Below, in pieces: positions 76 through 7,884 of a stretch of DNA of 64,000 nucleotides. This DNA is from Limibacter armeniacum. Lineage in GTDB: Bacteria > Bacteroidota > Bacteroidia > Cytophagales > Flammeovirgaceae. The notes under the pieces were generated by a model that was not told where the DNA came from, ran no database searches, and saw only the letters and a program-made list of their open reading frames with translations. Positions within the stretch are counted from its first letter, which is position 1. Every line of letters begins with the position of its first letter. The DNA lies in NCBI RefSeq assembly GCF_036880985.1, contig NZ_JBAJNO010000008.1:2295500-2359499 (forward strand), in the 5' to 3' direction. Made by a program: the position numbers and the translations under genes.

Positions 76-708
76 TTAACCGTCAATATCTAAGCCAAGC
101 TTGGAACGAAGGTCATTCAAAACAGGATATTTCTCAGCAAGGAAACTGAATTTTTCCTGTTGTGTATAGAGTCTTTTCGAGCTTATTTCCTGATTGGCTT
201 CTTCTACTATTTCTGGTTTGATGTCAATCAAGTCATTTCTCAGGTCATCACGGATGAATTTCAGTAGGCGTGGTTTGATTTCATTCAGGTGTTGTCCCTG
301 AACAGAATTACTCAAATTCACGATCACATTGTTCCCTTCCATTCTGGCAGGACCATCTTCCAACAAAATAGAAATCAGCGGACTGGTACCCTTTTTCTTC
401 ATGCTTAATGCAAAGGCTGACCAAGCTTCTTTTACCTGTCCAAAAGTGAAAGGAGTCGTTCTGTCTGCAACCAGATTAGCTTTCTGTTTAATTGCCTTTG
501 CAGCAGCTGCCTGAGCCTGATTGGCTATTTTTGCTTTGACATCATGCAGACTAGTTGAAATAGGGGCTGTCTGCTTGAAAGATTCTTTGTTTCTGGCAAC
601 ACGAAAATCCTGCACAAGGCTTTGCTTGGCAGGAGCTGCTGTATTTGTCTCTTTCTCTTTTTGGGGAGAATTTGTTTTTTTCTTTTTGGGCTGCGTTTTT
701 ACACTACT
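76..708 (-). CDS. dnaX: DnaX tau-specific C-terminal part (-1 frame continuation)
   Basis: This open frame continues the dnaX coding sequence after a one-base backward shift at the A run at 708-717. It is open from 708 to the stop at 76-78 (210 codons), with no stop in the linker. From its first in-frame GTG (615) it would be 179 residues, but no independent start is convincing. The first ~35 residues are a Lys/Pro/Thr/Gln-rich linker. The rest holds a motif beginning FGQVKEAWSAFALSMKKKG, followed by an alternating beta/alpha region and a helical tail ending KLGLDIDG, as in the C-terminal domain of Bacteroidota gamma/tau subunits. In known DnaX proteins the tau-specific part contacts the replicative helicase and the polymerase alpha subunit. 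Best reading: the 3' half of dnaX reached by frameshift or transcript slippage. Alternatives are a sequencing error in the homopolymer or a true split gene. Confidence 0.75.
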   Translation of the reverse strand, partial: SSVKTQPKKKKTNSPQKEKETNTAAPAKQSLVQDFRVARNKESFKQTAPISTSLHDVKAKIANQAQAAAAKAIKQKANLVADRTTPFTFGQVKEAWSAFALSMKKKGTSPLISILLEDGPARMEGNNVIVNLSNSVQGQHLNEIKPRLLKFIRDDLRNDLIDIKPEIVEEANQEISSKRLYTQQEKFSFLAEKYPVLNDLRSKLGLDIDG

Positions 709-1841
709 TTTTTTTTTCCCTGCTCCAAATGAGCAAGGCTGATGGCTTTTCGAAGATGTACCATCTTCATTAAGGCAAGTTCAACGTGTAGACGCTGGTT
801 CTTGCTGCTCTTGTAGTGTAGATCACATTGGTTGCCAATATTCAATGCTGACATCAACAGGGAAACAGGTATATCTTTTGCCTGTTGTGTGTAGCGCTCA
901 CGCACCTCTTGTGCAACTTCCAATAGTTGTACAGTAGAAGTGTCTTTACATACCAGCAGGTTTCGGAAGTGCTCACAAAGTCCAACTATAAAGTTGTGCC
1001 CGTCAAAACCGTTTCTGAGAATCTCATCAAAGATTACCAGCGTTTCAGCCATATTCTCAGCAGAGATTGCATCCGTTACTCTGAAGTAATAATCATAGTC
1101 CAGGATATGGAGGTTCTGAATGGCTGTTTGATAGGTTACGTGCCTGTCAGGTGAGAACGTAACAATCATATCAAAAAGTGACAAGGCATCACGCATACCA
1201 CCATCCGCTTTTTGTGAAATCAAGTGAAGGGCAGCTTCTTCAGCTTGTACACTTTCATTCTGAGCAATTCGCTGCAACTGTCTGACCATATCAGCAATCT
1301 GAATACGGTTGAAGTCAAAAATTTGACAACGAGACAGAATGGTTGGGATAATCTTGTGTTTCTCTGTTGTAGCCAGAATAAAGATGGCATATGAAGGTGG
1401 TTCTTCCAATGTCTTCAGGAAAGCATTGAAAGCCGCAGTAGAAAGCATGTGCACCTCATCAATGATATACACTTTCTTTTTGCCTGCGGGAGGAGCGTAG
1501 CGTACCTGCTCAATCAGCGCACGAATGTCGTCCACTGAGTTGTTGGAGGCAGCATCAAGCTCTATAATATTATATGAGGCATTCTTGTTGAAGCTAGAAC
1601 ACGATGGACACTCATTACAAGGCTCACAAGCCTCATTGAGGTTTTCGCAGTTGATTGTTTTTGCCAGAATTCGGGCAGTGGTAGTTTTGCCCACACCACG
1701 AGGACCACAGAAAAGAAAGGCCTGTGCAAGCTTGCTGCTTTTCACGGCATTTTTCAATGTGCCTGTAATATGCTCTTGTCCTACGACAGAGTCAAAAGTG
1801 TTAGGTCTGTATTTGCGGGCAGATACAACGAAATTATCCAT
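699..1841 (-). CDS. dnaX: DNA polymerase III subunit gamma/tau, zero-frame (gamma-like) product
   Basis: This is the clamp-loader ATPase of the replicative polymerase. From Met at 1841 (MDNFVVSARKYRP, the normal start in this family) it has 380 residues; an in-frame ATG at 1898 would add 19 unlikely ones. Visible: Walker A GPRGVGKT (about residues 46-53), a Cys cluster (65, 72, 75, 78, 81) matching the clamp-loader zinc module, Walker B DEVH (about 128-131), and the sensor-1/SRC region ATTEKHKIIPTILSRC. The frame stops three codons after a run of ten A residues, as ...GKKKVV and TAA. The rest of the family's C-terminus lies in the -1 frame immediately downstream, so the full tau-like product would be about 588 residues. 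This resembles dnaX genes that make both forms by slippage. It is monocistronic, with a kmo-operon terminator just upstream. Confidence 0.93.
   Translation of the reverse strand: MDNFVVSARKYRPNTFDSVVGQEHITGTLKNAVKSSKLAQAFLFCGPRGVGKTTTARILAKTINCENLNEACEPCNECPSCSSFNKNASYNIIELDAASNNSVDDIRALIEQVRYAPPAGKKKVYIIDEVHMLSTAAFNAFLKTLEEPPSYAIFILATTEKHKIIPTILSRCQIFDFNRIQIADMVRQLQRIAQNESVQAEEAALHLISQKADGGMRDALSLFDMIVTFSPDRHVTYQTAIQNLHILDYDYYFRVTDAISAENMAETLVIFDEILRNGFDGHNFIVGLCEHFRNLLVCKDTSTVQLLEVAQEVRERYTQQAKDIPVSLLMSALNIGNQCDLHYKSSKNQRLHVELALMKMVHLRKAISLAHLEQGKKKVV
706..726 (-). promoter_or_regulatory. dnaX A10 slippery site
   Basis: On the coding (minus) strand ten consecutive A residues (717 to 708) are read in zero frame as GGA AAA AAA AAA GTA GTG TAA. 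Slipping back one base reads AGT AGT GTA AAA and enters the tau frame. A GGAG sits about five bases before the run (726-723) and could act as a Shine-Dalgarno-like stimulator. I see no strong hairpin downstream. That favours polymerase slippage on the long A tract (as known for Thermus dnaX) over hairpin-driven ribosomal shifting (as in E. coli dnaX), but both remain possible. Confidence 0.7.
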
Positions 1842-1981: not shown

Positions 1982-3337
1982 TTACCCTTTCAAATGAAGT
2001 TGGATTACTTGTTCCAAAACAGCATGAAGGTCCAAGGAATGTATATTATTCACTTGCTGACAAATCTCTGTAAGCAGCTTGTCCTGTGCTCGACCTTTTC
2101 TCATAGCCACCGAATAGGGCAAGTCTTCTCTAAATGTGACCATCGAGTATTTTGAGTCAAAGTTTTCAAAGTTTTGCTCCAAAATAAGGTCAAGATCTTT
2201 CTTTTTCTGGTAAACAGGGTTGGCGACATGATCCCTCATTTCGTAGTAGTTTTCTTCAGCAAGTTCTCCAATGGCATCGGTATCTGCCTTTCGCATCATC
2301 TGGTATGTGTTCAAAACCAGGTTCCAGTCAGGTCCCAATTCTTCGATCAACTTGTCCAGAATCAAGCAATCCTCAAACGCACAATTCATTCCTTGTCCAT
2401 AAAAGGGAACAACCGCATGGGCTGCATCTCCAATCAATAGAGCCTTGCCATTTACCTGCCAAGGATAACATTTGATGGTCGCCAAAGCGCTGGCAGGATG
2501 GTTTTGGAAATTTTCTACAAGGTCAGGAATGTGTGGTATTACATCAGGAAATTCTTTTTCGAAAAATGAGGTAATAGCTTCAGGATTGTCCAGCTTTTCA
2601 AAACTGTCCTCACCATCAAAAGCCATAAATAAGGTAGCGGTAAAACTTCCATCTGTATTGGGCAGTGCAATCAGCATATAACTTTTTCTGGGCCAAATAT
2701 GCAAGGCATTTTGATCCATTCTGAAACCTCCGTTTTTATTGGGGGGGATATAAAGCTCTTTGTATCCATGTTTAAGGTAATTTTGGGAAAAGGTAAACCT
2801 TAGTTTTGGAGCGTGATGATACATCTCATTCCTGATGGCAGAGTTTGCGCCATCTGCTGCAAGGGTAACATCAGCTGTTTCTGAAAAGTGTTGATGGGTT
2901 AGCTCATCAACAAACCTGACAGTTCCTGTTTCTAAGTCCATGCCTTCACACCGTACATTGAACCTTAATTGTAAGTTGGGGTAAGACTCTGCTGCATTGA
3001 GCAGTATTTTATTGAGTTCTCCTCTAGAAATAGAATTGATATAATCATTGCTTCTTCCACTGTAAGGCTGAAGGTCCAATTCACCTGAAATAGGGTGAAT
3101 TAACCTGCCAAACATGGGAATGGCTTTACTTAAGATCACTTCATCTAACCCAACTTTTTGGAGAGCAGCAATTCCCCTGTCTGAAAGCGCAAGGTTGATA
3201 GATCGCCCTGCCGAAATATCTACTTTACGCATATCAGGTCGCCTTTCATATACTGCTACTTCAAAGCCTCTTTTTGCCATCATGATTGCCAACAGGCTAC
3301 CTGCCAGTCCTGCACCTGTAATGATAATTTTTTCCAT
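1982..3337 (-). CDS. kmo: Kynurenine 3-monooxygenase
   Basis: This FAD-dependent hydroxylase converts L-kynurenine to 3-hydroxykynurenine with NADPH and O2. The 451-residue length is normal. The N-terminus has the Rossmann dinucleotide motif GAGLAGSLLAIMMAKRG, followed by the family signature GRSINLALSDRGIAAL, which is characteristic of KMO among flavin hydroxylases. A second FAD-binding GD motif appears in LLIGDAAHAVVPFYGQGMN. The C-terminal region corresponds to the helical part that anchors the eukaryotic enzyme to mitochondria, but I see no clear transmembrane segment here. It is the last gene of a minus-strand operon with ACMSD (31 bp upstream) and HAO, and is followed by a strong terminator. 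The context supports catabolism of kynurenine or 3-hydroxykynurenine. Kynureninase is not in the window. Confidence 0.95.
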   Translation of the reverse strand: MEKIIITGAGLAGSLLAIMMAKRGFEVAVYERRPDMRKVDISAGRSINLALSDRGIAALQKVGLDEVILSKAIPMFGRLIHPISGELDLQPYSGRSNDYINSISRGELNKILLNAAESYPNLQLRFNVRCEGMDLETGTVRFVDELTHQHFSETADVTLAADGANSAIRNEMYHHAPKLRFTFSQNYLKHGYKELYIPPNKNGGFRMDQNALHIWPRKSYMLIALPNTDGSFTATLFMAFDGEDSFEKLDNPEAITSFFEKEFPDVIPHIPDLVENFQNHPASALATIKCYPWQVNGKALLIGDAAHAVVPFYGQGMNCAFEDCLILDKLIEELGPDWNLVLNTYQMMRKADTDAIGELAEENYYEMRDHVANPVYQKKKDLDLILEQNFENFDSKYSMVTFREDLPYSVAMRKGRAQDKLLTEICQQVNNIHSLDLHAVLEQVIQLHLKG

Positions 3338-3368
3338 AAGTCAAATTGATCAGTATTGGGTTAAAAAT

Positions 3369-4421
3369 TTATGCCTTGAGGCTTCGGTCTTTTTTCGAAG
3401 GGATGAAAAAGTCCTTTTCGATTCCTAACCACTCAAGTGCACTTCCATGTAGTAGACTTTCCTTTGTGATCAGGTCGAGATCAGCTATTTCCCTGATTAG
3501 TTTTCCCGGTTCCAATTCACCTAAAGGGAATGGATAATCTGACCCTAAAGCGATCCTGTTGGGTCCTATCAGGTTAATCAGGTATTTAAGGACCTCAGGG
3601 TCGTGAACAAGAGAGTCAATAAAGAATTTACCCAAATAGTCTTTGGGGCTTGTTCCATTGTCAATGGCACAAAGGTCTGGACGTACGTTAAAACCGTGTT
3701 CTATTCTTCCTATTGTAGCAGGGAATGAGCCTCCGCCATGTGCAAAGGCAACTTTTAGGTTGGGGAGTTTTTCAAATACACCTCCGAAAATCATGGAGCA
3801 AATGGCTAAGGATGTCTCAGCAGGCATACCAACTAACCAAGGAAGCCAATACTTCGGCATTCGTTGTTGTCCCATCATGTCCCAAGGGTGGACAAATATT
3901 GAAGCGCCTAACTCTTCGGCAGCTTCAAAAAATGGCAGTAAGTTGTCATCACAGAGGTTCCAGTCATTTATATGGGAACCAATTTCAACTCCAGCCAGTC
4001 CCAGTTCCTTGACACATCTTTCCATCTCTTTGATCGCCAAATCGGGTGCTTGTAATGGGACCGTGCCAAGCCCGATGAAACGATCAGGGTAATTGGCTAC
4101 CACACTTGCAATATGATCATTCAGAAAGCGGGAGACATCCAGTGCATGTTGTGGTTGGGCCCAGTAGCTGAACATTACTGGTATGGTGGACAGTACTTGA
4201 ACATCTACCTGATGGTGGTGACATTCTTTCATTCGGGCTTCAGGTGACCAACAATTATCTTGAATTTCTCTAAAGAAAAGGTCATCCTTCATCATTCTGG
4301 CGCAACAGGGCTTGTGGTGTTCTAGCCTTATAAATCCTCCATAACCGAATTTTTTCGCAAAATCAGGTAGCTTCTCAGGGATAATATGTGTGTGAATGTC
4401 TATGGTGAAAATCTTGTCCAT
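3369..4421 (-). CDS. 2-amino-3-carboxymuconate-6-semialdehyde decarboxylase (ACMSD)
   Basis: This zinc amidohydrolase-superfamily decarboxylase takes the ring-opened product of 3-hydroxyanthranilate and removes CO2 to give 2-aminomuconate semialdehyde, diverting carbon from quinolinate and NAD. The 350-residue chain tracks the family along its whole length: N-terminal metal motif DIHTHIIPE, the substrate region KKFGYGGFIRLEHH, the block NCWSPEARMKECHHHQVDVQ, FVHPWDMMG with the metal-ligand His, WLPWLVGMPAETSLAICSMI, FAHGGGSFPATIGRI, and GSDYPFPLGELEPGKL with the metal-ligand Asp. It is equivalent to nbaD of nitrobenzoate degraders. It lies between HAO (140 bp upstream) and kmo (31 bp downstream). 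The 140-bp gap before it holds a perfect dyad that may be regulatory. Confidence 0.95.
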   Translation of the reverse strand: MDKIFTIDIHTHIIPEKLPDFAKKFGYGGFIRLEHHKPCCARMMKDDLFFREIQDNCWSPEARMKECHHHQVDVQVLSTIPVMFSYWAQPQHALDVSRFLNDHIASVVANYPDRFIGLGTVPLQAPDLAIKEMERCVKELGLAGVEIGSHINDWNLCDDNLLPFFEAAEELGASIFVHPWDMMGQQRMPKYWLPWLVGMPAETSLAICSMIFGGVFEKLPNLKVAFAHGGGSFPATIGRIEHGFNVRPDLCAIDNGTSPKDYLGKFFIDSLVHDPEVLKYLINLIGPNRIALGSDYPFPLGELEPGKLIREIADLDLITKESLLHGSALEWLGIEKDFFIPSKKDRSLKA

Positions 4422-4470
4422 GTGGAAAGTAGTATGTCGTGAATTGATATTTCCTATACGATGAAAGTAT

Positions 4471-4490
4471 GAGTGACAAAATCGTCACTC
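4471..4490. promoter_or_regulatory. Dyad GAGTGAC-N6-GTCACTC upstream of ACMSD
   Basis: A perfect seven-base inverted repeat with a six-base spacer lies about 50 bp upstream of the ACMSD start. No T tract follows, so it does not look like a terminator. A nearly identical dyad occurs at 47554-47573, which suggests a protein-binding site. No regulator can be named from the sequence. Confidence 0.4.
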
Positions 4491-4561
4491 CGTAATTTTG
4501 AGTGTAGTAATGGCTGTACCAGAGTCCAGGTTCCGTTAGAAAGCTGGATACTTAGGTTGAC

Positions 4562-5113
4562 TTATGATTTAGCTTCGGCAGGTTTTTTCGGTGGTTCCAT
4601 TACATGACTACAGGATGTGCAGGTCCTTTTGGCCTTGTCCTGATAAAACTGTTCAAAAATAATGGGTAGTTGCGTGACAATATCGCTAACAGCTATCGGT
4701 TCACGATAGAGCTGATGACCACAGCTTTCACAATACCACTCAAATGCGTCTTTTACACCTTCAGGGCGCTTAGATTCTATCACCAGTCCAATTGACCCAG
4801 CAGGACGTTGAGGGGAATGAGGGATTTTGGGTTGTAATAGAAAGACTTCACCTTCCTTGATTGGAATATCCTTAAACTCACCATTGTCGATTATCTTAAG
4901 GGTAATATTTCCTTCGACTTGGTAAAAGAACTCAGGAGTTTCATTGTAGTGGTAGTCTTTTCTTGAGTTAGGACCTCCAACAATCATGATGATAAAAGCA
5001 CCATCTTCATAGACTACTTTATTACCTACTGGTGGTTTAAGCAGTTCCCTGTGTTGATCTATCCATTGTTTTAGGTTTACGGGAGAGAAAGGGTTTGTTA
5101 TTTTATCCATCAT
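4562..5113 (-). CDS. nbaC: 3-hydroxyanthranilate 3,4-dioxygenase
   Basis: This cupin-fold Fe(II) enzyme opens the ring of 3-hydroxyanthranilate to 2-amino-3-carboxymuconate semialdehyde. Length 183 residues, normal for bacterial HAO. The cupin core shows the iron ligands in DYHYNETPEFFYQVEG (His and Glu) and in PKIPHSPQRPAGSIGLVIE (His). The C-terminus carries the extra rubredoxin-like metal site of the bacterial/fungal type: CESCGH near residue 129 and CTSC near 165. Start: two adjacent Met codons; either could be used. It is followed after 140 bp by ACMSD, its direct downstream step, and preceded by a RidA-type deaminase 73 bp upstream. Confidence 0.95.
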   Translation of the reverse strand: MMDKITNPFSPVNLKQWIDQHRELLKPPVGNKVVYEDGAFIIMIVGGPNSRKDYHYNETPEFFYQVEGNITLKIIDNGEFKDIPIKEGEVFLLQPKIPHSPQRPAGSIGLVIESKRPEGVKDAFEWYCESCGHQLYREPIAVSDIVTQLPIIFEQFYQDKAKRTCTSCSHVMEPPKKPAEAKS

Positions 5114-5186
5114 TGTTTGGGTTAGTATGAGAAATAGATTGAAACCCTAAGCCATTAGGAATAATGGCTAGGGTTTCGGGATATTC

Positions 5187-5597
5187 TTAATCGATTGTTG
5201 CAATTACTTTCAGCTCAACGGCAATAGGTGTAGGGAGGGCATTGACTTCAACAGTTGTACGGCAAGGTTGATTGTCCTTGAAATACTCCGCATAGATCTC
5301 ATTGAATTTTGCGAAGTCGTTTTTCATATTGGTTAGAAAAACGGTTACATCTACGATACGGTCCCAGCTTGAACCTGCATCTTCCAATATCATTTTGACA
5401 TTTTTGAAAACGGAATGACATTGCAGTTCTATATCGTAGGAGAAAATTTCACCAAAAGTATTGAATTCAACGCCAGGTATATTGGGTGTGCCTTTCTCTC
5501 TTGGTCCTACACCAGAGAGGAACAGCAGGTTGCCTACTTTTTTTGCATGAGGATAGGCTCCTACTGGTTCGGGAGCATTTTCTGATTCAAAGTTCAT
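5187..5597 (-). CDS. RidA-family protein, probable 2-aminomuconate deaminase
   Basis: A 136-residue YjgF/YER057c/UK114-fold protein. Features of the family: LLFLSGVGPREKGTPNIPG, the helical block ECQ-type LQCHSVFKNVKMILEDAGSS, VDVTVFLTNMKNDFAKFNEI, and the C-terminal CRTTVEVNALPTPIAVELK. General RidA proteins hydrolyse reactive enamines. Its place between the semialdehyde dehydrogenase and HAO matches the AmnD/NbaF type, which deaminates 2-aminomuconate to 4-oxalocrotonate. The assignment to that reaction rests on context; the fold is clear from sequence. The typical RidA arginine is visible in PCRTTVEV. Gap to the dehydrogenase stop is about 30 bp, so co-transcription is likely. Confidence 0.85.
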   Translation of the reverse strand: MNFESENAPEPVGAYPHAKKVGNLLFLSGVGPREKGTPNIPGVEFNTFGEIFSYDIELQCHSVFKNVKMILEDAGSSWDRIVDVTVFLTNMKNDFAKFNEIYAEYFKDNQPCRTTVEVNALPTPIAVELKVIATID

Positions 5598-5627
5598 TGG
5601 TTATATTTTTAATTTTTAAAAAGAAAA

Positions 5628-7076
5628 TTACCTGTAACTGATACAGACATTTTTTGGCTCTGTAAAAAAGCGTAAAGCTTCCCATCCGCCTTCACGACCC
5701 ACTCCAGAGTGCTTGATTCCGCCAAAGGGAGTTCTAAGGTCTCTAACCATCCACCCGTTTATCCAAACTATTCCAGCTTGAATTTGAGCTGCCATATGGT
5801 GAGCCCTTGACAAGTTTTCAGTCCAAATGGTACTAGAAAGCCCATAGCCTGTACTATTGGCATAAGAAAGAGCTTCATCTTCACCGTCAAAAGGCATAAT
5901 GGTTACAACAGGGCCGAAGATCTCTTCCTGATTGGTGCGACAGTCTGCTGGTAAGCCCTCTATGACTGTTGGGGCGACAAACCAACCTCCCTGACATCTA
6001 CCTTCCATTTGTATAACATTTCCGCCAGTGAGAACCTCACCACCTTCTTCTTTGGCGAGTTCGATGTAGCGCATCACTTTTTCCATATGGGCTTTTGATA
6101 CAAGTGCACCAAATTGTGTTTCGGGATTATTGGGGTCTCCAACTGCAAGCTGTTGGACTTTCTCCAGAAAGTCTCTCTTGAACTTTTCATATATCGATTT
6201 CTCAACCAAAATACGGGAGCCACATAGGCATATCTGTCCCTGATTCGCAAAAGATGATCGGATGGTAGTTTGCAGCATCTGGTCATACCTGCAATCAGCG
6301 AATATGATATTGGGGTTTTTTCCACCCAGCTCAAGGGAAAGCTTCTTAAACATGGGCGCAGCTTGTGCAGCAATTCTTGCTCCTGTTGCTGTGCCACCAG
6401 TAAATGAAATGGCTTTTATTTCCGGATGGCTTACAATAGCTTCTCCAGATGATTGTCCATATCCATGAATGATGTTCAATACACCTTTTGGTAACCCTGC
6501 CTCGATACAAATTTTTGATAGTAAAAAGGCTGTCATGGGAGTCAATTCGGATGGTTTGGCAATGACACAGTTACCAGCAGCAAGGGCAGGGGCAATCTTC
6601 CAAGTGAACAGGTAGAGTGGGAGGTTCCATGGAGAAATGCAGCCAACAACCCCAATAGGTTGCCTGAGTGTATAATTGATGGCATTGGCATGTGGCATTT
6701 CATGGGACTCAGAGGCAAACTGAGTGAGTGCATTTGCAAAGAACTTAAAGTTGGATGCAGCTCTAGGAATATCTACAGTAGAAGCCAATGAGATAGGTTT
6801 GCCTGTATCTTTGGATTCTGCGGAAGCCAATGCTGATAGGTTTTCTTCAATCAATTCAGACATTCGTCTTAATAAGTCATGTCTGTAGTCAGTGGAGGTC
6901 CTGCTCCAAAACCTGAAAGCTTCTTTCGCTGCTATAACTGCTTGTTGGACGTCGTCCTTATCAGAATTGGGTATAAGGGCATAAGATTCTCCAGTCGCAG
7001 GCTCAAAACACTCGAAATAATTTCCATTTATGGGTTCACAAAGTTGTCCATCAATATAGTTTCTGATGAGTTCCAT
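5628..7076 (-). CDS. 2-aminomuconate/2-hydroxymuconate 6-semialdehyde dehydrogenase
   Basis: An NAD-dependent aldehyde dehydrogenase of about 482 residues from Met at 7076 (MELIRNYIDGQ). An in-frame ATG at 7133 would overlap the SDR gene and adds 19 atypical residues. Visible: LRQPIGVVGCISPWNLPLYL, the GGTATG-type NAD-binding turn in SFTGGTATGARIA, catalytic Glu in LELGGKNPNIIFADC, catalytic Cys in NQGQICLCGSRILVE, and NQEEIFGPVVTIMPF. The pattern is that of the 2-hydroxymuconic semialdehyde dehydrogenase group (NbaE/AmnC). Substrate assignment is supported by placement with HAO, ACMSD and the RidA deaminase: it oxidises the ACMSD product to 2-aminomuconate. It starts about 20 bp after the SDR stop. 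Confidence 0.92.
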   Translation of the reverse strand: MELIRNYIDGQLCEPINGNYFECFEPATGESYALIPNSDKDDVQQAVIAAKEAFRFWSRTSTDYRHDLLRRMSELIEENLSALASAESKDTGKPISLASTVDIPRAASNFKFFANALTQFASESHEMPHANAINYTLRQPIGVVGCISPWNLPLYLFTWKIAPALAAGNCVIAKPSELTPMTAFLLSKICIEAGLPKGVLNIIHGYGQSSGEAIVSHPEIKAISFTGGTATGARIAAQAAPMFKKLSLELGGKNPNIIFADCRYDQMLQTTIRSSFANQGQICLCGSRILVEKSIYEKFKRDFLEKVQQLAVGDPNNPETQFGALVSKAHMEKVMRYIELAKEEGGEVLTGGNVIQMEGRCQGGWFVAPTVIEGLPADCRTNQEEIFGPVVTIMPFDGEDEALSYANSTGYGLSSTIWTENLSRAHHMAAQIQAGIVWINGWMVRDLRTPFGGIKHSGVGREGGWEALRFFTEPKNVCISYR

Positions 7077-7095
7077 GATTATTGGGTTAGTGAGA

Positions 7096-7884
7096 TCATA
7101 GTGACTTGGTTCTGCCGCCATCCACAGGTACATTTATACCGTTGACGTAGGCTGCTGACGGAGAGGCAAGGAAGGCAACCACTGAGGCGATTTCTTCTAC
7201 TTCTCCAAACCTGCCAGCAGGAATTTCCATCTCCATCCGTTTTTGTACTTCCTCTTCAGAAATATTGTTCTTTTGACTTTGGCTCTGGACAATGGCTTTT
7301 AACCTTCCTGTCTTGATGGTACCGGGTAGGACATTATTGACCGTAATGCCAAACCCTCCTAATTCTGACGCTAATGTTTTTGACCAGTTGGCAACAGCTC
7401 CCCTTATCGTATTGGATACTCCAAGTCCAGGAATAGGTTGTTTTACAGAAGTTGAAATGATATTGATAATCCTGCCGTAGTGAGCCACTTTCATTCCTTG
7501 GATTACAGCTTGTACAAGTACTTGGTTACACTTGAGGTGCATTGTAAAAGCCTTTTCAAAATCGTCAAGTGTTGCTGTATGTGCAGGTCCGGGAGCAGGT
7601 CCACCAGTGTTGTTGACAAGAATATGAATGGTTTGAACCGAATCAAGGTAGGAATTGAGTTTGTCTTGCAAAAAGTGCGGGTTTTGAAAATCCACACAAA
7701 GGTACTTGTGTTGCTGTCCTGAGGGAGTGGGTAGTTCGTTTACAGTTTGCTGTAGACTATCCTCGTTTCTTGCTAATAGGGTTACAGTAGCCCCAAGCGT
7801 TGCAAGTTCTATGGCAGAGGCTTTCCCAATTCCCTGTGTACTGCCACATACAAGGGCATGTTTGTTTTCCAGGTTTAGGTTCAT
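7096..7884 (-). CDS. SDR-family oxidoreductase without the usual Tyr/Lys pair
   Basis: A 262-residue Rossmann protein and the first gene of the kynurenine operon. It has the SDR cofactor motif GSTQGIGKASAIELA, the NNTGGPAPGP segment in place of NNAG, and the C-terminal block INVPVDGGRTKSL. At the catalytic position, where most SDRs have YxxxK, this chain reads VSNTIRGAVANWSKTLASELG, so Tyr is replaced by Ser and Lys by Arg. SDR subgroups with an SNTIR-type motif exist, so this may be a natural variant, but the reaction is unknown. It could act on a later intermediate of the muconate branch. Upstream lies a candidate operator at 7911-7929. Confidence 0.82.
   Translation of the reverse strand: MNLNLENKHALVCGSTQGIGKASAIELATLGATVTLLARNEDSLQQTVNELPTPSGQQHKYLCVDFQNPHFLQDKLNSYLDSVQTIHILVNNTGGPAPGPAHTATLDDFEKAFTMHLKCNQVLVQAVIQGMKVAHYGRIINIISTSVKQPIPGLGVSNTIRGAVANWSKTLASELGGFGITVNNVLPGTIKTGRLKAIVQSQSQKNNISEEEVQKRMEMEIPAGRFGEVEEIASVVAFLASPSAAYVNGINVPVDGGRTKSL

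Follow-up and report, generated by a model that had tools for sequence, protein, structure and literature searches.

In the 64-kb stretch of the Limibacter armeniacum genome that was analyzed here (the window), dnaX lies on the minus strand and its reading frame is broken at a run of ten A's. The locus comprises the following features:

702..1841, minus strand: dnaX zero frame, from an ATG at 1841 to the stop TAA at 699-701, coding for a 380-residue gamma-like DnaX (AAA+ ATPase, lid, domain III)
708..717, minus strand: A10 slippery run (T10 on the plus strand), seen in the sequence; proposed RNA polymerase slippage site
79..708, minus strand: -1 frame extension of 210 codons, the tau-specific C-terminal part (stop at 76-78), assigned by its PRK14971 match and by C-terminal matches in relatives
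718..738, minus strand: predicted RNA stem-loop at the 5′ edge of A10, 8 bp with a loop of 5 (arms 738-731 and 725-718), -11.9 kcal/mol

The run is reached at codon 375 of dnaX and reads GGA AAA AAA AAA GTA GTG TAA. The zero-frame phase is AAA AAA AAA GTA and not A AAA AAG, and A10 also contains an in-phase A AAA AAA usable for a -1 ribosomal shift. One extra A in the message, or a -1 ribosomal shift, would yield a 588-residue product, while both non-tau frames close early, at codons 380 (A10) and 378 (A9). The zero-frame part has Pfam matches to DNA_pol3_delta2, DNAX_ATPase_lid and DNA_pol3_gamma3, and it also matches the NCBIfam model TIGR02397. A second NCBIfam model, PRK14971 (DnaX gamma/tau), is covered at positions 1-375 by the zero-frame part and at positions 415-614 of 614, i.e., to its last position, by the extension (E 6.2e-21); the extension alone had no Pfam match at the cut-off. 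There is one dnaX match in the 8.04-Mb genome, and a search of the window against Rfam returned no family at gathering score. The observation that dnaX is split at A10 is confirmed, and the original prediction of such a split, with gamma and tau as the likely products, is borne out by the window sequence. Upstream of dnaX, at 1982-7133 on the minus strand, lie genes with Pfam matches to FAD_binding_3, Amidohydro_2, 3-HAO, Ribonuc_L-PSP and Aldedh, which look like a kynurenine/3-hydroxyanthranilate breakdown operon.

A10 is the sole run of at least nine A's or T's in the window, and the presence of a run is by itself not beyond chance (two nine-base matches versus a mean of 6.09 in window shuffles). 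What goes beyond chance is the place of the A10 run and its conservation. The genome holds 12 tracts of at least ten A's or T's (14 matches in all, four of which pair up as two A11 tracts), and four of the tracts, dnaX included, fall within or at an open frame of 90 codons or more. Another such gene is split at A10 (L300/L307, G000:C9:68044-69401, minus strand), where a 339-codon frame that looks TPR-like by eye is followed by a 134-codon -1 frame. No run of at least eight A's occurs in or just after the matching frame at 11 loci of its relatives, and this split may be a recent indel. Elsewhere (L302, G000:C9:595039-595048), an A10 lies inside two overlapping open frames related by -1, perhaps of the kind found in phage tail assembly chaperones.

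The run and the break were followed in 37 genomes of relatives and in 118 genomes each drawn from the order and the phylum (the L. armeniacum genome being in both draws), to which the best 80 named records were added. No genome of the same genus was in the search set; the nearest named relatives are Flammeovirga species, with 73-75% identity over residues 1-377. Of the 17 relatives from the same family, 15 had a readable gene, and two were left out (G011 had no match, and the match of G009 ended at residue 314). The order set gave 115 genomes with a match, own genome included, of which G113 (matched to residue 224) was left out; the phylum set gave 116, own genome included, of which 38 were left out. 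Genes that agreed at every base from 300 to 1000 were treated as one, except within 23 late additions, and the parsed set came to 268 distinct dnaX genes including that of the window. The run was taken as the longest stretch of A's from base 1000 to base 1420 of the gene, and a frame was called tau at 500 residues or more. The tau frames of L073, L200, L206, L212 and L276 extend past the end of the stretch, and the runs of L229, L231 and L233, at codons 450-463, are possibly chance runs.

A run of at least nine A's was found in 225 of the 268 genes of this phylum sample (190 A10, 20 A9, 14 A11 and one A12). By group, and apart from the window gene, it was present in 15/15 genes from the same family, 92/102 from the order, 23/24 from the class and 29/49 from the phylum, and in the named records in 47/59 Cytophagales, 13/13 Sphingobacteriales and 5/5 others. 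In the family, all 16 readable genes (8 genera, window included) have exactly A10, encode gamma and carry the same break, with tau one A away. Relatives with eleven A's and a continuous frame, which the original prediction had named as its refutation, were not what this family check returned: 16/16 genes had A10 with the break.

The genes with a run divide into 113 that encode gamma and 112 that encode tau. In the gamma-encoding genes, tau is reached with one A more in 109/113 and with one A fewer in 4/113. All 113 genes whose tau frame lies outside the encoded frame carry a run of at least nine, and among the 43 remaining genes, whose run is shorter or absent, 40 encode tau in a single frame. 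L243 and L244 are short and run-less, with no tau frame past the stop; L106 is also short and run-less, and its contig ends 56 bases past the stop, so a run-less break is possible there. In the parsed sample, every break for which a tau frame was found coincides with a long run.

The run is conserved and the encoded frame is not. On one FastTree tree (residues 1-345), the encoded form, gamma or tau, changes at least 25 times, against 64-81 changes in 30 label shuffles. Polarity differs even between close species, with N-terminal identities of 95.0% (L275/L288) and 92.6% (L261/L262), and the run is found in all three codon phases. A run that is kept while the frame switches is expected if messages of several lengths arise whatever the DNA encodes. 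One pair of records, L057 (A11) and L178 (A10), has N-terminal parts that are 98% identical and the same flanks, and represents either a true one-A polarity flip or an assembly error.

We analyzed the number of codons from the run to the first stop in the frames other than tau, relative to shuffled tau-frame codons (300 shuffles). In the 112 tau-encoding genes, the tau+1 frame closes at a mean of 5.4 codons versus 19.9 after shuffling (0/300), and the tau-1 frame at 6.0 versus 15.0 (0/300). Thinning to 80% clusters (57 genes) left 0/300 for each frame, and thinning to 65% (13 genes) gave 6/300 for tau+1 and 0/300 for tau-1. In the gamma-encoding genes, the third frame closes at 5.5 codons versus 10.5 (0/300), a signal that weakens with thinning to 11/300 (80%, 43 genes) and 57/300 (65%, 10 genes). 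Slippage gives a reason for closing both non-tau frames, and a -1 ribosomal shift alone gives none for tau+1. These early stops in both other frames of tau-encoding genes argue for slippage, as originally favored. The gamma-encoding genes in which tau requires the loss of one A (or the gain of two) are L057, L162, L212 and L217; one -1 ribosomal shift cannot yield tau in these four, which supports slippage. Two of them, L057 and L217, are possibly assembly errors, and the tau frame of L212 ends beyond the stretch.

The 3′ arm of the predicted stem-loop of the window ends at the last base before A10, with no gap, and the structure also appears in the fold of 708-780; the original prediction had overlooked it. 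Across relatives, hairpins forced to end at a given base were scored in a set of 95 genes (80% clusters), and their mean energy at the run edge was -3.24 kcal/mol versus -0.96 along the gene (control positions -150 to -21: mean -0.96, sd 0.19, strongest -1.39), growing stronger toward the run edge and weaker inside the run. Within 3 nt of the run, -4 kcal/mol was reached by 52/95 genes and by 177/950 control positions, and -8 kcal/mol by 18/95 and 17/950, respectively. Dinucleotide shuffles gave a mean of -1.86 (0/100 as strong). Gene by gene, p 0.05 was passed by just 19/95, and at four control positions by 8-13/95.

The pairing partner was addressed by swapping 5′ arms between genes while keeping the 3′ arm, which reduced the mean to -1.93 to -1.95 (0/100 for each of three arm lengths); 15 genes reached -7 kcal/mol, compared with 3.9 on average and at most 8 in the arm swaps. 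By cluster, arm swaps gave 0/200 at 75% (62 genes), 0/200 at 70% (35 genes), 8/200 at 65% (19 genes) and 29/200 at 60% (10 genes). A stem-loop at the 5′ edge of the run is thus enriched in the phylum. Among all 225 genes with a run, 87 have a hairpin of -6 kcal/mol or stronger within 2 bases of it, 62 of these gapless. The family has such a hairpin (-6) in 4/16 genes and 4/8 genera, with 0/9 in the genus of Flammeovirga. In three genes only, the window (L001), L013 and L025, the stem keeps one register with two pairs changed on both sides; L013 and L025 each lack one stem pair near the loop. With the hairpin absent from roughly half of the genes, its role can be that of a modulator, not of a requirement. 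Hairpins occur in 4/4 genes that need one A fewer versus 30/109 that need one more (Fisher p 0.007), and in 53/112 tau-encoding genes versus 30/109 (p 0.003); both comparisons ignore kinship and we claim no link from them.

On the 3′ side of the run, the window yields -2.5 kcal/mol over 50 nt (z -1.76), -6.1 over 60 nt (z -3.66, 60 shuffles) and -6.1 over 75 nt (z -2.03); the 60-nt fold is thus low in energy and better than its shuffles. The original prediction had seen no downstream hairpin, and no strong one is seen (-6.1 kcal/mol over 60-75 nt, z -2.0 to -3.7). A downstream stimulator was considered and is not favored, given the weak energy in the window and a mean z of -0.37 to -0.49 in relatives, with controls at -0.24 to +0.08. 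The 36 nt upstream of the run fold with a mean z of -0.77 to -0.79 in relatives. An SD-like purine tract adjoins the run (mean over 95 genes, -3.09 versus -0.78, scored against the anti-SD sequence), and this peak at the run edge may leave room for a ribosomal contribution.

The serious rival to slippage is a programmed -1 shift of the ribosome at A AAA AAA, which would make tau from faithful transcripts. The in-phase A AAA AAA within the run would serve it, the window, needing one more A, fits it equally well, and tau lies in the -1 frame in 109/113 gamma-encoding genes, with only 4 needing one A fewer. It could also draw on the SD-like purines that peak just upstream of the run, on the 60 nt downstream that beat shuffles in folding (z -3.66), and on published two-ORF dnaX genes that include some with short A runs or none (PMC3711429). 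Set against this are the tau+1 frame that closes early in tau-encoding genes, the four genes with tau in the +1 frame, and runs held at ten though seven suffice. The downstream fold is low in energy (-2.5 to -6.1 kcal/mol), and the SD-like tract adjoins the run. In E. coli dnaX, the SD-like sequence sits about ten bases upstream of the shift site, a spacing that the tract here does not share. We regard ribosomal frameshifting as the sole source of tau as unlikely. Pontibacter speaks for it: in 11 loci (L038, L039, L041-L049), the run is only A7, tau is encoded, and an immediate -1 stop TAA follows, together with a downstream inverted repeat, GGCACC...GGTGCC, that is identical in 11/11 and shows no covariation. 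By its sequence, this genus looks like a change from slippage to ribosomal shifting of the E. coli type.

The two remaining alternatives deny that the break is programmed. A sequencing or assembly error, with a true run of A11 and a continuous frame, could be suspected because homopolymers are error-prone and because the near-identical records L057 and L178 differ by one A; it is very unlikely given A10 with the break in 16/16 readable family genes from 8 genera, and given 113 broken genes in the phylum sample, every one with a run of at least nine. Scarcely more probable is a true frameshift that leaves gamma as the sole product and the extension decaying. The encoded frame does stop after the run, as such a frameshift predicts, yet the extension stays open over its 210 codons, its match to the tau part of PRK14971 goes through to the last position, the split is common to 8 genera, and the genome has a single dnaX match.

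The reading that we prefer is that A10 in dnaX is probably a programmed transcriptional slippage site. From the sequence, we infer that the polymerase slips here and that both proteins are produced. RNA polymerase would add or drop A's on A10, a run that roughly equals its RNA-DNA hybrid in length, and dnaX mRNA would be a mixture of A lengths. Messages with 10, 9 or 12 A's would soon run into a stop and yield gamma, a clamp-loader subunit of 378-380 residues; those with 11 (or 8, or 14) would be read into the extension and give tau, of 588 residues. A stem-loop folded against the hybrid's upstream edge could raise or bias slippage, and some of the tau may come from ribosomes that shift by -1 on A AAA AAA. 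More tentatively, and with somewhat less confidence than we would need to advocate it, the pattern may reflect a slippage cassette spread over much of the phylum, in which the encoded frame is near-neutral, A10 is kept, and the stem-loop (in many lineages, the window included) tunes the rate or direction of slippage and so the gamma:tau ratio.

If slippage makes tau, a presumably essential subunit relies on an RNA polymerase "error" across a large share of the phylum, and gene callers unaware of it will mark dnaX as truncated. The polarity switches would also let one ask, as a natural experiment, whether bacteria other than E. coli need gamma, as either product remains possible whichever is encoded.

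E. coli, too, makes gamma and tau from a single gene through a shift at lysine codons, a trait common to it and, as proposed, the window. There, dnaX encodes tau, and its A AAA AAG is flanked by an SD-like sequence upstream and a stem-loop downstream (PMC3711429, PMC5009743). In Thermus thermophilus, a single ORF encodes tau and gamma arises by slippage (PMC5009743, PMC1088944). Its dnaX resembles the present one in the long A run (at least nine), in slippage (here proposed) and in stops in the other frames; it differs in having A9 with tau encoded, where the window has A10 with gamma encoded. The original analogy, according to which the zero frame gives the short form as in Thermus, therefore fails, since Thermus encodes tau (PMC5009743, PMC1088944). 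In polarity, the window is opposite to E. coli and Thermus alike.

A stem-loop 5′ of a slippery motif drives slippage in the Roseiflexus IS630 transposase (PMC5009743). The window would share with it a nascent RNA stem-loop directly 5′ of the motif and a product that requires slippage. The differences are that the transposase motif, T5C5, loses one C in a mobile element, whereas in the window an A10 in a core replication gene would give tau most simply by gaining one A. If it acts as proposed, the 5′ stem-loop here would extend slippage driven by such structures beyond a transposon and into a core gene. The same review notes that the two products can trade roles through a change of one base, and it repeats the account of slippage in two-ORF dnaX genes (PMC5009743).

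That account goes back to Antonov 2013 (PMC3711429), in which two-ORF dnaX genes were predicted, mostly with poly-A, and slippage was inferred. That work lists 17 such genes from 12 genera, with A10 in nine; the others include one A8, one A7 and five outside the poly-A count. The short-run and run-less genes mean that the two-ORF arrangement exists without a long run. A literature search restricted to CC-licensed PMC papers, as far as titles, the first lines of abstracts and passages of the three papers cited here go, returned no description of the scale, the polarity switches or the 5′ stem-loop. The type of Antonov 2013 and the window share a gamma ORF with the tau extension behind it in the -1 frame, an A10 (in nine of the 17 published genes) and conservation in relatives; relative to what is available of that work, the present analysis has 113 such genes, switching to a tau-encoding form, and a 5′ stem-loop. 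The window dnaX joins the two-ORF type already described there by computation, with slippage inferred (PMC3711429).
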